A stretch of 33,912 bases of DNA, from NCBI GenBank assembly GCA_903918235.1, contig CAIXDN010000052.1, forward strand, positions 1 through 33,912, read 5' to 3'. Position 1 is the first letter of the stretch, and the number at the start of each line of letters is the position of its first letter. Below are positions 3,390 to 31,944 of the stretch, one piece after another. The position numbers and the translations under genes are program-made. The stretch is from Candidatus Uhrbacteria bacterium (GTDB taxonomy: Bacteria; Patescibacteriota; Patescibacteriia; 2-12-FULL-60-25). Below the pieces are notes generated by a model, which did not search any database, had not been told where the DNA came from, and saw nothing but the letters and a program-made list of their open reading frames with translations.

Positions 3390-6300
3390 TTAAGCTGGGG
3401 ATAATTTGTGAGCAACCCTGCTAAGAGCAATGTGCTTATCAACGACCGCTTCTTTCACCGCAAACAAATTAATATCCTCTGTTTTAAACCGCTCAAATCC
3501 CGGCTTCTCCGCAGTCACAAAGTACATGCTCTTCGCAGCAAAGAAACCATAGCGCCCCTTTGGAGTTGTAACCTGCGTTTCCAAAAGCTTATTAAACTTT
3601 TTATCAAAGATACGAACAACAACCGAGCCAAGTGGTTTTCTCGTAACTGCATCGTAAACAATGCCCCAACCCTTTGGTTTCTTTGGCAGTGCCAAGCGCC
3701 TAAACAAGAAATACGTACACACTTGAAACGCTACTAAACCTGCCAACATCCAGCTTGGCGATACAGCTAGCGCACCGATTGTAACAAAAACCCCAATCAA
3801 ACTAACAGCATGTTGCAGACGGCGCAAATAACGCTTCCACAATACAGAGCGAGGCGTTTCTTCCTTCATCGCAGGATCAATAGGGATATTGACCGCTAGG
3901 TTTACTTCATCCGTAATCTCGATATTTTCGCCATGATACAAATCAAGCAAATCCACATCTTCATGTTCATCTTTCAAATACTGGGTCGGAAACGCATATC
4001 CTGGCTTAACAACCTCAATACGATATAGCCCAGGCCTAACAAGAAAAGTAAATCGACCATTCATATCCGTGATACTTGTTTGTACAACAGCCCTGGTCTG
4101 CGCCTGCAATAAACGTACAACAACCAAATCCAGCGGAGCTTTTGACAGCGCATTATAAACAACACCCCATTTCTGACGTTTTTTTCTTCGGAAAAGAAGA
4201 ACGGGTTGTGTGATTAAAAAGCCAAGATAATTCAAAAGACTAAACAAAGAACCAGCTGTTGCAACGTTTGCGATCACAATAGCAGCAACGACAGGAGCCG
4301 AGACCGTCGCAACTTGCCGCGCCTGCTCCGATTGTAAAATCTCTATAATTGGCCCAAGAATAGGAATAGCTACTGAAACAGGAAGGATAATATCAATAGA
4401 AGCATAATTTTGTGTAACTTCAATCTCTTTTTCTTGCGTCACATAACCATCTTTAACAACCTCAATACGATACGAACCATTCTTAACTAAATATCCATAC
4501 GTTCCTTGCTCCGTCGTAACAATCGTATTCACCTGACTATACGGTGCCCCCTTCCACTCTTGCCACTGACCATCAACACGCTCAAATAAGCGCACAGTAG
4601 CATTTTTTACAGGCGATAAATCAGAAGCAACATCTTTTCTCTCAAGCACACGACTAGGCGAAATGGTTTCTATCGTACCAGGAGCATACGCAGAGCGTTC
4701 ATCCTCTAATTGCACTTGCACAGTAGCCTGTGTGCGCCCAGCATCATAAGAAGGCACAAATGTTGCTCCATAATAGGTACTTCCCGGTAATGGTGTCAGC
4801 GAATATACGGACGAGCCAACACGAATCATCGCGCTCTTAATCATCGCCGGAAGATCCAACGCAGAAACACGTACAAGCACCGACGTACCTTGTGGCACGC
4901 GAATAACACCAGCCGCATCAGGCTGAAGCGACAATAAGCCATTGTTTGCAGAATATTCAGGCTTAATCACAAAGCTCGATACACCAGGCTCAACCGGAGG
5001 CGTTGAAGTCACAACAGGAAACTCAACAGTTGGAACCGTAGAAGTACCTGAGCCACTCCCAACAGAAGGAACGACCGGAATCGTTGTTGTAGCCGCTATT
5101 CCACCTGATCCCACACCACCAGTAGGACCGCCAGACGGAGGTCTTGTCGGCGGTCTTATGACCGGAGGAACAACTGGAGGAGGCGGAACAACCGGAGGAG
5201 GTACAATCGCTATATGAACAGGCGTAGCATCCGCATTAGCTCCACTAGAAAAATTTCCGGAACGATCAAAAGCAAAATTCGTATAGTAATACTTCACGCC
5301 ATTAACAAGGCCCGTATCAATGAACGAGGTAGCACCTCCTTGATAAACGTCTCTCCCATCATCTGGCCTCATTGGGTAACCATCCATTCTCGCTCGTATT
5401 TTCACAAGAGAGAAATCTCGATCGCTTGGGTTTCTCCAGCTCAGACTATTTTGTGTATCTCCAGCGGTGGCTACAAAACGATAGACATTGGCAGGCGGAG
5501 TAACATCGCCAGTTGTCGTAAATGTATAATCAGCAGAAGCGCTTGTTAAGGAATCAATCGGCTCTGTAGAGCTCGCCTGAAAATGATAAAGGGTCGCAAT
5601 CGTTAATCCCGACAAAACCACAGAGTGACTCGTCACATTACCAGCACTAGACGCTTCCAAACCATAAACACCCGTCAAACCATAATGAACATGACTTGAT
5701 GCTGGTAATCGTGTACTCCAAGTAATAACCGCGCCATGATCCGTAATGGATGTTGCTCGAACATTAGAAATAACCGGCAATAAGCCGACAGCAACAGTAG
5801 TAAATACAATATCTGGACTATGTGAAACATTCCCCATCGCATCAATAGCCGATATCTTAAAATGAATCACCGTACCCATTGGAAGATCTATCAAAGAAAC
5901 AACATGACTTATTAAATAGGAAGAAATCGTTGTAGAGCCTAGTAAATAAGATGTATTCGTTCCCCAAACAAAATTACTTCGAGCCGCCTCATCTGTATCC
6001 CAAATAATATCAGCGGTAGAGGAGGTAATATTTAAGACCTGAATGTTTAAAATGGATGGAGCTATAACGTCTGAACTGCTTCCTCCCGGAGCCGGGACCG
6101 TAGCGGAAATTCCACCAGAAATGCCAACAGAATCATTTGTCTTAATCGGAACATCAATACCACCAACATCGCCAAAGGTTCCACCAATAGAAAGAGAAAT
6201 GCGACCGCCTCCTCCTGACGGATTGATAATCTGGCGTGAACCACCAACTACAGTTAAACCAATGCGAACATACACAAGATCCCCAGACGCGATCTCTCCA

Positions 6301-6680
6301 ATAACCGCATCCGTAGGAGCAATAAGCGTAATCTTTTGCCCTACGATATCCGCACCCCAAACTCCAGCAGCCGCAGCTCCGGCGATTGTTGGATTTGTTT
6401 CAAAGCCCGTAATAGCACCATGAAACAAACCAATATCAGCAGATGTAATTGAAGTGAGATCAAATCCAGACGGAAAATCAATGGTAATGGTATCTGTTGG
6501 TGCATCAACACCGCTAACAGTAATAAATCGAATCTCATGATCAGAAGCAGCACCAACGCTTTGCCTTGTCATAACATCACGACGACCCGTAAGAACATCA
6601 GCCTTTACACCAGTAAAGGGCAACATCGCAAACAACGCGGTGAAAACCGCGGCAAAAATACAAAAAGAGTGTCGTCTCAT
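3390..6680 (-). CDS. Secreted and membrane-anchored Fn3 / carboxypeptidase-regulatory-like domain protein
   Basis: 1096 residues from ATG at 6680. A signal peptide occupies residues 1-27. A beta-rich N-terminal domain (~28-190) is followed by two Fn3-like domains with the purple-acid-phosphatase-like pattern (~208-296 and ~302-390) and a third Fn3-like domain (~395-488). A Pro/Gly-rich linker covers ~492-545. Three carboxypeptidase-regulatory-like sandwiches lie at ~688-767, ~837-932 and ~1003-1085; each has the pattern 'variable ornament, G-x-Y/F, Y-x-I/V-x-V/A-E-K-x-G-Y/F'. Hydrophobic stretches at ~793-830 and ~957-994 separate them, each followed by basic residues (FRRKKRQK, FRRLALPKKPK). 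By the positive-inside rule the last two sandwiches could be cytoplasmic, which is odd for this fold. It starts 66 nt after the DUF916-like gene, probably co-transcribed. No enzymatic motif is visible; a structural or anchoring role is inferred. Confidence 0.85.
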   Translation of the reverse strand: MRRHSFCIFAAVFTALFAMLPFTGVKADVLTGRRDVMTRQSVGAASDHEIRFITVSGVDAPTDTITIDFPSGFDLTSITSADIGLFHGAITGFETNPTIAGAAAAGVWGADIVGQKITLIAPTDAVIGEIASGDLVYVRIGLTVVGGSRQIINPSGGGGRISLSIGGTFGDVGGIDVPIKTNDSVGISGGISATVPAPGGSSSDVIAPSILNIQVLNITSSTADIIWDTDEAARSNFVWGTNTSYLLGSTTISSYLISHVVSLIDLPMGTVIHFKISAIDAMGNVSHSPDIVFTTVAVGLLPVISNVRATSITDHGAVITWSTRLPASSHVHYGLTGVYGLEASSAGNVTSHSVVLSGLTIATLYHFQASSTEPIDSLTSASADYTFTTTGDVTPPANVYRFVATAGDTQNSLSWRNPSDRDFSLVKIRARMDGYPMRPDDGRDVYQGGATSFIDTGLVNGVKYYYTNFAFDRSGNFSSGANADATPVHIAIVPPPVVPPPPVVPPVIRPPTRPPSGGPTGGVGSGGIAATTTIPVVPSVGSGSGTSTVPTVEFPVVTSTPPVEPGVSSFVIKPEYSANNGLLSLQPDAAGVIRVPQGTSVLVRVSALDLPAMIKSAMIRVGSSVYSLTPLPGSTYYGATFVPSYDAGRTQATVQVQLEDERSAYAPGTIETISPSRVLERKDVASDLSPVKNATVRLFERVDGQWQEWKGAPYSQVNTIVTTEQGTYGYLVKNGSYRIEVVKDGYVTQEKEIEVTQNYASIDIILPVSVAIPILGPIIEILQSEQARQVATVSAPVVAAIVIANVATAGSLFSLLNYLGFLITQPVLLFRRKKRQKWGVVYNALSKAPLDLVVVRLLQAQTRAVVQTSITDMNGRFTFLVRPGLYRIEVVKPGYAFPTQYLKDEHEDVDLLDLYHGENIEITDEVNLAVNIPIDPAMKEETPRSVLWKRYLRRLQHAVSLIGVFVTIGALAVSPSWMLAGLVAFQVCTYFLFRRLALPKKPKGWGIVYDAVTRKPLGSVVVRIFDKKFNKLLETQVTTPKGRYGFFAAKSMYFVTAEKPGFERFKTEDINLFAVKEAVVDKHIALSRVAHKLSPA

Positions 6681-26255: not shown

Positions 26256-27869
26256 ATGGAAATGTCTCGACGAACAGCCTTGAGCGCATTAGCTATAGGA
26301 GCAGTAGCCATAGCGGGGAAGGATATTCTGAGCAGCTTAGATAGAATTATTCCTGAAGAGGCTCCAAAGCCACCAAAGAAACAAGAAATCCAACGCGATG
26401 AAGTTGAATTTTCTGAACCGCATGACCAAACAATACGTTGGGAAGTTGGAAGCCGCCTCCATAAAGATGAAGAGAATGATGCGCGTGAAATAGCAGCATT
26501 TCAATTAGAAATAAACGATTTTGCAAAAAAACTAAGACAAGAAATTGGCTTTGTGCCAAATGGAAGTAGCGATGCTAGCCAAGAACAAGAGGCGGCACGG
26601 AAGGCGCTTCTTGCATCGGTACTTCCCGAGAGGATAAAGCAAATAGCAAAAATCCTAACGCGATATCCCTCGACACGAGGGCAGGAAGCACGGCTACTAT
26701 ATGAAGACGCGCTACAGCTTTTTAGCTCATGTCATGGACAAGGCTTAGTATTTAAAGCATGGAACGAGGCTCTTGCAACAGAGGGCAAAGAGGTTTCTTT
26801 TGATAGAAATGGACAATACTATGAGACGCGGATGCGAGACTATGTTCCAGCAAGTCCAGACATATGGAGCCAGGACATGGATCCGAGAAATAAGCCGAAT
26901 CGTCCGGAAGCAGACAGGCAACGTATGCAAGAAAAACCAGGCTGGTCTGGAAAGCAGCGTAAAAAGCTCTTCAAAAGACTTTCATCTCAGCCTTGGATGA
27001 TCGAGCTAGGAAAACAAGAAGACCTTACACTCGTGGAATACTATTCATTTATAAAATCGTATATACATGAAAAAAGCGAGTCAGATGAAGAATCGCCAAG
27101 AGCGCTCGCAGAACGATTGCTGGAAGCAAGACGCACGATGCTTGAGCGGTCGATTGTAGACGCATCGACAGAGCAGGTGATTATATTTGCAGGAAACGAT
27201 GCAAGATATTTTTCAGGAACAGAAGACGGCGCATGGGATGAGGTTCTCGAATCATCTGGAGTAAATCAAGACCGTATAAACAAAATTGCAACACCAGAAG
27301 GAGGCTCAAACTCAGAAACGCTCGGCATGTTAAAAAAAGTTATTGCTTCATCAAAAGGAAAAACGCTGCTGGCATTTAGTACGCATGGAGCAGAGCATTT
27401 TTTGGGGATGGGCCATCAAGGAGGAGCTGAGGCAATTACAGATGTTGCATTAGCAGAGGCATTACTTGCTCGTGTACAGGAACAACACAGCGCAGAAACG
27501 CTAAAAGATATTACCGTGATAATGGACGCATGCCATACATATGAGTTTGCAAAAAATGTCATGCAAAAAATGAAAGAAGCATGGCAGGCAAAACAGCCTC
27601 GTCCTTTTCCATTCGCACGCATCCAGTTGCCCTGCATCGTAGCTGGCGTACAAGAAGGTTCAGTAGGACAAGCAGGATCAGTCATCTCGCGAGTCTTGCA
27701 AAACCAGTTAGGAGGTATTGAAAAAGACAGAGGCATTTCCGGAAGAAGACTCCTTCAAAACGTGCAACCAACTTCTTATGAGGAAAACGACATGACATTT
27801 TTTTCTCCAGGAACCGGCTTAGAATTTGCAGATAACAGCGGGCATCTTTCACAAGAAAGGATCGTGTGA
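26256..27869 (+). CDS. Caspase-like (clan CD) cysteine peptidase with twin-arginine-like leader
   Basis: 537 residues. N-terminus MEMSRRTALSALAIGAVAIA has S-R-R followed by a hydrophobic core and a possible AIA-G cleavage site, so Tat export or membrane anchoring is plausible. A charged helical region follows (~40-300). The C-terminal domain has the caspase-fold dyad: beta strand then His (LLAFSTHGAEHF, H377) and, about 49 residues later, VIMDACHTYEF (C426). It ends with substrate-strand-like segments (LPCIVAGVQEGS). Related folds include C13/C14 peptidases and gingipain/clostripain; which is closest is unclear. Neighbours ychF and UDP-glucose dehydrogenase give no functional clue. The assignment rests on the two motifs and secondary-structure pattern; cleavage specificity is unknown. 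Confidence 0.72.
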   Translation: MEMSRRTALSALAIGAVAIAGKDILSSLDRIIPEEAPKPPKKQEIQRDEVEFSEPHDQTIRWEVGSRLHKDEENDAREIAAFQLEINDFAKKLRQEIGFVPNGSSDASQEQEAARKALLASVLPERIKQIAKILTRYPSTRGQEARLLYEDALQLFSSCHGQGLVFKAWNEALATEGKEVSFDRNGQYYETRMRDYVPASPDIWSQDMDPRNKPNRPEADRQRMQEKPGWSGKQRKKLFKRLSSQPWMIELGKQEDLTLVEYYSFIKSYIHEKSESDEESPRALAERLLEARRTMLERSIVDASTEQVIIFAGNDARYFSGTEDGAWDEVLESSGVNQDRINKIATPEGGSNSETLGMLKKVIASSKGKTLLAFSTHGAEHFLGMGHQGGAEAITDVALAEALLARVQEQHSAETLKDITVIMDACHTYEFAKNVMQKMKEAWQAKQPRPFPFARIQLPCIVAGVQEGSVGQAGSVISRVLQNQLGGIEKDRGISGRRLLQNVQPTSYEENDMTFFSPGTGLEFADNSGHLSQERIV

Positions 27870-31502: not shown

Positions 31503-31555
31503 GCCGGGGTAACCCCTGGCCGTGCTCACAATGAGTGTTGAGCGCGGTCGGGAGG
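31503..31555 (+). promoter_or_regulatory. Leader hairpins and Shine-Dalgarno of the lipoprotein gene
   Basis: GCCGGGG-TAA-CCCCTGGC (31503-31520) and CCGTGCTCA (31520-31528) pairing with TGAGCGCGG (31539-31547, one G-U pair) precede GGGAGG (31550-31555), which is 5 nt before the ATG. This is the strongest Shine-Dalgarno in the window. The second hairpin ends 2 nt before it, so folding could affect ribosome access. Confidence 0.5.
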
Positions 31556-31560
31556 TTCCT

Positions 31561-31944
31561 ATGCGCCGATGGATCATCTTCATGCTCGTGACAGTCACCA
31601 GTCTCATCCTTTTTCCCGCAATCGCTGGCTGCGCTCAAGGTTACGATGTAACCAAACACCAAAGCGAATGGCTAACTCAAGACGCCGGAGCTGCAACTCG
31701 CGTTATGGCCGCAACAGAAGTCTGCAACGGTTTCGATGACGACTATGACGGCCGCGTTGATGAAAACTTTGAATGTAGCCTCGGTCAAATCGGACCGATC
31801 TGTTATATGAGAAGTGGAATTATGAGCCGTCTAAAATGCCAGTGGCCCTACTGCCTGTGGAGCCGTGAATGCTGCGGCTCAGAAGTCTGCGGAGACAGCT
31901 TCGATAATGATTGCGATGGATTTATCGATGAAAATTGTTACTAA
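31561..31944 (+). CDS. Small lipoprotein with two MopE-type putative metal-binding motifs
   Basis: 127 residues. ATG 31561 is chosen over 31522 because GGGAGG sits 5 nt upstream. A lipoprotein signal peptide (MRRWIIFMLVTVTSL) ends in lipobox PAIAGC. The mature part has two copies of the Cys/Asp-rich motif: EVCNGFDDDYDGRVDENFEC and EVCGDSFDNDCDGFIDENC. Their D-x-D-x-D-G spacing resembles calcium loops, and the motif is the 'putative metal-binding motif' of MopE-type proteins, common in deltaproteobacteria. Additional cysteines (PICYMRSG, WPYCLWSRECCG) could form disulfides. It stands alone between a long structured leader and a terminator hairpin. Strong Shine-Dalgarno use and higher GC than its neighbours hint at horizontal acquisition. 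Confidence 0.8.
   Translation: MRRWIIFMLVTVTSLILFPAIAGCAQGYDVTKHQSEWLTQDAGAATRVMAATEVCNGFDDDYDGRVDENFECSLGQIGPICYMRSGIMSRLKCQWPYCLWSRECCGSEVCGDSFDNDCDGFIDENCY

Follow-up and report, generated by a model that had tools for sequence, protein, structure and literature searches.

Peptidases of clan CD share a core of four strands and helices 1-3, in which strand 3 ends at the catalytic His and strand 4 at the catalytic Cys, and parts of the chain beyond this catalytic core often keep the enzyme inactive (PMC4357240). Membrane helices are predicted in about 15% of the prokaryotic metacaspases, where many of them could be signal peptides, and single-domain prokaryotic metacaspases with one N-terminal helix, possibly a signal peptide, make up 46/398 (PMC3501461). 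An earlier note on the DNA studied here, a stretch of 33,912 nucleotides from a Candidatus Uhrbacteria genome (the window), had described an exported caspase-like peptidase and had called its layout unusual, on the grounds that caspase homologues of bacteria mostly reside in the cytoplasm. In view of the metacaspases with membrane helices, and of three C14 proteins with Sec-like leaders from the same class (L046, L047, L048), this generalization was overstated, and to call the protein unusual because it is exported is a weak argument, as exported bacterial caspase homologues are already known. Export alone is not unusual; what is unusual is the C13-like sequence, a new N-terminal domain, and a Tat-type leader without a detected TatC.

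The host genome comprises 874 kb in 81 contigs. The open reading frame exists as it had been described, i.e., it starts with ATG and encodes 537 amino acids in the standard code. On the same strand, a gene for a YchF-type GTPase and one for a UDP-glucose dehydrogenase flank it, separated from it by gaps of 38 and 14 bases. Its GC3 of 0.348 is below that of both direct neighbours; as it falls within the range of the window (0.26-0.53), it is no evidence of transfer. Two further genes of the window attracted attention. One (3390-6680, minus strand) encodes a protein of 1096 aa, likely a large surface protein, in which a Sec-like leader is combined with a fibronectin-like domain and several beta-sandwich domains of the carboxypeptidase-regulatory-like type, and the other (31522-31944, plus strand) encodes a short leader-bearing protein with matches to a MopE-like copper-binding motif. 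The features of the gene under study are as follows, with their basis in brackets:

26256-27869, plus strand: whole gene, with leader, N-terminal helical domain and putative C13-like clan CD peptidase domain (sequence; nine family members)
26256-26315, plus strand: leader MEMSRRTALSALAIGAVAIA, possibly cut by signal peptidase I at A-I-A, behind residue 20 (sequence, hydrophobicity)
26478-27110, plus strand: N-terminal, mainly helical domain, residues 75-285, about 210 residues (conservation, prediction)
26838-26888, plus strand: signature motif DYVPASPDIWSQDMDPR, residues 195-211, DFLPxxxEIxxxEIDPR in relatives, with P, D, P and R invariant (alignment)
27024-27056, plus strand: second motif LTLVEYYSFIK, residues 257-267, LTLAExYSLxK in relatives (alignment)
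27123-27866, plus strand: putative C-terminal clan CD (C13-like) peptidase domain, residues 290-537 (model, conservation, profile matches)
27384-27386, plus strand: predicted catalytic His377 (THG), after strand 3 (conservation, model)
27531-27533, plus strand: predicted catalytic Cys426 (DAC), after strand 4 (conservation, model)
27651-27668, plus strand: QEGSVG after predicted strand 5, residues 466-471, by its position a possible substrate-pocket loop (sequence, model)

A scan of genome contigs with the single protein yielded no relatives, and a scan with a pair alignment matched only the copy of Candidatus Magasanikbacteria GW2011_GWA2_56_11, which is in the same class as the host and thereby assigns the window to it. 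With a three-sequence profile the gene was found in 7/381 genomes of the class and with an improved profile in 5/46 genomes of a Magasanikbacteria-like family; 3 of the 41 genomes of the host's own family carry it. The gene is thus spread patchily across one class of the Patescibacteria, which we take to be ABY1 for the host as well as for the homologue-bearing genomes. No credible member outside the class was found among 380 sampled genomes of the phylum, a set that included genomes of the class and would miss rare members; a match in G427 (E 5.8e-4) was judged to be due to chance, because it spans only model positions 257-343 and no family-length open reading frame is present there. The family was not found in viral contigs and phages, PADLOC gave no match, and the only PHROGs match, a weak one of a single member, was taken as chance.

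Nine family members, including the window protein, were read from their loci, and their identities are about 18-39%. For G038 the N-terminus was taken from a separate contig fragment (C37), which is either the missing start or a second copy, and the two halves of the G224 gene lie on different contigs. The G038 fragment itself (L026:1450-1908, contig 37) has a perfect SRRGFLK leader and runs off the contig end. In a full-length tree the window protein groups with the G017 protein (support 99/98), and a gene-tree test for horizontal transfer gave no resolved grouping besides this pair. The gene neighbours mostly differ between the homologue genomes and therefore do not imply a partner, and no shared neighbours that point to a substrate were found among the homologue loci.

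The dyad and the two-domain layout are conserved in this family. H377 lies within FSTHGA (THG, residues 376-378) and C426 within IMDACH (DACH, residues 424-427), exactly where the earlier note had placed them. When the 233 columns of the C-terminal domain were ranked by divergence from background, H377, invariant in 9/9 members, was first and C426, kept in 8/9, was third, and thus the pair stands clearly above chance. In clan CD the His usually stands in HG, and both His and Cys come after hydrophobic strands; here the His is followed by Gly in eight of the nine members (G185 has HS), and C460, the other Cys of the domain, is outside the 25 most conserved columns. Judged by these ranks, the dyad is under strong constraint within the family. 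The charged helical region that had been noticed in front of the peptidase turned out to be a conserved domain of its own: residues 75-285 are conserved among the members reaching that far, and this part is predicted to be helical in a low-confidence model. It has no significant relatives in Pfam or the PDB, where a profile search gave zero matches; a match to L27/CASK came from one profile, disappeared with a profile of the N-terminal domain alone, and was rejected. Because parts outside the core often hold clan CD enzymes inactive, a regulatory role of the domain is a reasonable inference.

Taken together, the favoured and moderately probable explanation is a membrane-attached or exported, outward-facing clan CD cysteine endopeptidase that is nearest to C13 and would be a distant relative of legumain and caspases. 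The leader or anchor would place both domains beyond the cytoplasmic membrane, the His377/Cys426 dyad would form the active site where strands 3 and 4 end in a caspase/haemoglobinase fold, and the N-terminal helical domain would probably cover, position or regulate this site, or bind the substrate. We infer an active enzyme that would serve in the processing of exported or surface proteins of the cell itself. The host bacteria probably live on other cells and depend on a partner, and an action on the partner cell is possible.

The S-R-R leader of the earlier note corresponds to residues 4-6 and is a genuine twin-arginine leader; in relatives the motif is more complete, RRxFL. Twin-arginine leaders are present in 8/9 members and RRxF in seven (in G038 via fragment C37, in G224 via two contigs). 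The leader of the window protein reads SRRTAL, without the Phe, and has a hydrophobicity of 1.71, and G185 has a hydrophobic anchor (2.08) without the arginine pair. In a 17-residue Kyte-Doolittle window the RR leaders reached 0.86-1.74, compared with 2.0-2.7 on the same scale when leaders and anchors were taken from other proteins of the same genome and class that appear to be exported. On this scale most RR leaders appear as weakly hydrophobic as Tat signals. Most of the leaders are followed by an AxA site or by a Cys in a lipobox-like position. RRxFL-like leaders were also observed on unrelated proteins in G024, G002 and G017, genomes of the host's family (L025, with KRNFL, L027 and L028), and TatC was not found above the cut-off there.

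The check for tatC that had been proposed was negative: at E<=10 TatC was found neither in the own genome, which is 89% complete, nor in six other homologue genomes (the seven named in this search do not include G750 and G759), and none of the 41 genomes of the host's family had a match above the cut-off. Three of 363 class genomes contain a clear TatC, and therefore the model is able to detect TatC in this class. Sub-threshold matches in relatives were set aside; L014, the one that was read, resembles a different kind of protein, a short one with two membrane helices. For freshwater CPR bacteria, a survey reported Tat in other classes, and ABY1 is not named (PMC9166423). Export thus stands as probable, while the Tat route lacks support because TatC was not found, although the leader looks Tat-like.

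The same observations could indicate that the peptidase resides on the cytoplasmic side, with the RR leader as a relic or a membrane-touching helix after the loss of Tat, and that it acts inside the cell, e.g., in stress or protein quality control. The negative TatC searches in the seven homologue genomes and, above the cut-off, in the 41 relatives would fit, and the RR leaders are less hydrophobic than the Sec-type leaders and anchors. However, most leaders are followed by the AxA site or lipobox-like Cys, even distant members conserve the RR motif, a clear hydrophobic anchor takes the place of the RR leader in G185, and Sec tolerates paired arginines (PMC5539426), and thus a cytoplasmic location is considered unlikely. 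It is more speculative still, and rather improbable, that Patescibacteria without a recognizable TatC read twin-arginine leaders via a highly divergent or different translocase, which would bring a C13-like processing enzyme to the cell surface.

For the favoured exported endopeptidase the question of its nearest relatives was addressed by a comparison with C11, C13, C14 and C25, as the earlier note had proposed. In Pfam, Peptidase_C13 (PF01650) was the best family for 5/9 members, with a best E-value of 0.004, which does not reach the cut-off; the window protein scored 16.5 bits versus the curated cut-off of 22.8, with about 87 residues aligned. When the domain profile was compared with PDB sequences, seven of the ten matches (E-values 0.18-1.9) were C13 enzymes, namely GPI transamidases at the top, asparaginyl endopeptidases and peptide asparaginyl ligases, and in the printed alignments the HG and C of the query are opposite the HG and C of the enzymes. 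No single PDB match was significant, and no Pfam family cut-off was reached anywhere. Each match being sub-threshold, the weight lies in the enrichment of one family and in the agreement with the conserved residues, which suggest a relationship to C13. Pfam C14 (PF00656) had no match listed for the family at E<=10 and none in the own genome, and C11 and C25 did not match. In a profile comparison with the same-class C14 proteins FSTHG/FSGHG and MDACH/LDCCN align, with an hhalign probability of 49%. The score exceeded that of 200/200 column shuffles; because 17/200 motif-keeping block shuffles (15-column blocks) scored as high, the likeness is one at the level of motifs. Of the term "caspase-like peptidase", the clan CD part is thus supported by conservation, sub-threshold C13 matches and predicted strand order, while the closest relatives would be C13 (legumain/GPI transamidase) and not caspases proper, a relation that is supported but below threshold. 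In addition, a 328-aa open frame with an above-cut-off C13 match (IVYFGTHGG ... IADACHSGS) was noticed at another locus (L049 in G036, same family); it has a hydrophobic, leader-like segment in which GGAGC may be a lipobox.

The GPI transamidases and peptide asparaginyl ligases among these matches raise the prospect of a C13-like transpeptidase, which would cut a surface protein and join it to another molecule, and for which an extracytoplasmic placement is plausible. However, the PDB matches are below significance, C13 also holds ordinary proteases, between which and ligases the sequence cannot tell, and no sorting-signal partner was identified, and thus this activity is regarded as very unlikely.

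One member deviates at the dyad: in G017 (L002:1486-3096) the catalytic Cys is replaced by Asn in an otherwise intact gene, and this protein is likely a catalytically dead pseudo-peptidase. The grouping of this protein with the window protein could be extended to a non-proteolytic family, with the fold as a binding scaffold, and inactive bacterial caspase homologues are known, accounting for 8.6% of bacterial orthocaspases (PMC6426788). However, both residues are kept in eight of the nine members, including the window protein, and rank within the top three columns by conservation, which makes a dead family highly improbable.

For the structure prediction, AF2 was given two sequences, the window protein and the Magasanikbacteria copy. 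The full-length model was too poor to be used (pLDDT 42), and its fold search was meaningless. The model of the C-terminal domain had a pTM of 0.61, and most core strands and helices had a mean pLDDT of about 57-82, with 70-82 in the best blocks. In window numbering, strands were predicted at 307-312, 341-345, 370-374, 419-423 and 459-462, and helices at 326-334, 352-365, 396-410 and 428-446. The order along the chain is b1-a1-b2-a2-b3-His377-a3-b4-Cys426, and this predicted arrangement of strands, helices and dyad agrees with the clan CD core, with support below threshold. Foldseek gave no match at E<=0.001 for either model; for the moderate-confidence domain model the top matches were assorted alpha/beta proteins. 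A Geobacter protein, 3bij, which we take to be a caspase homologue, came only fifth (E 0.023). Of the expected caspase sheet, with strands in the order 2-1-3-4 and H377 close to C426, the chain order and the positions after strands 3 and 4 were thus recovered in the model, while a significant fold match was not. That the motifs arose by chance in an unrelated Rossmann-like alpha/beta fold would fit the assorted Foldseek matches and the lack of a significant family match, but is next to negligible in view of the conservation ranks of H377 and C426, the repeated dyad-aligned C13 matches and the dyad after strands 3 and 4.

The analysis adds an apparently undescribed, patchily distributed family of C13-like peptidases that carry a leader and a new N-terminal domain and occur in very reduced bacteria, and it poses the puzzle of Tat-type leaders without a detectable TatC. 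If the enzyme acts at the surface, it would be a candidate processor of proteins used in the contact with partner cells.

Compared with Tat-dependent exported proteins (SRRxFLK), most family members share the twin-arginine motif and the weak hydrophobicity, but searches of seven homologue genomes did not reveal TatC. With C11 (clostripain) and C25 (gingipain) the family has the clan and the dyad in common in general; C11, in contrast, is extended by additional strands and by a long C-terminus of helices (PMC4357240), whereas the extra domain of the window family is N-terminal. C14 (caspases, metacaspases, orthocaspases; PF00656) is similar in clan, dyad and predicted core strand order, and the three same-class C14 proteins also bear leaders, whereas the window protein has no Pfam C14 match and is not fused to known signalling domains. 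C13 (legumain, asparaginyl endopeptidase, GPI transamidase; PF01650) differs in that legumain has a C-terminal prodomain instead of the N-terminal helical domain, and the window family has a twin-arginine leader and misses the curated cut-off; nevertheless, the HG and C motifs align to the catalytic dyad of C13, and the predicted strand order is the same.
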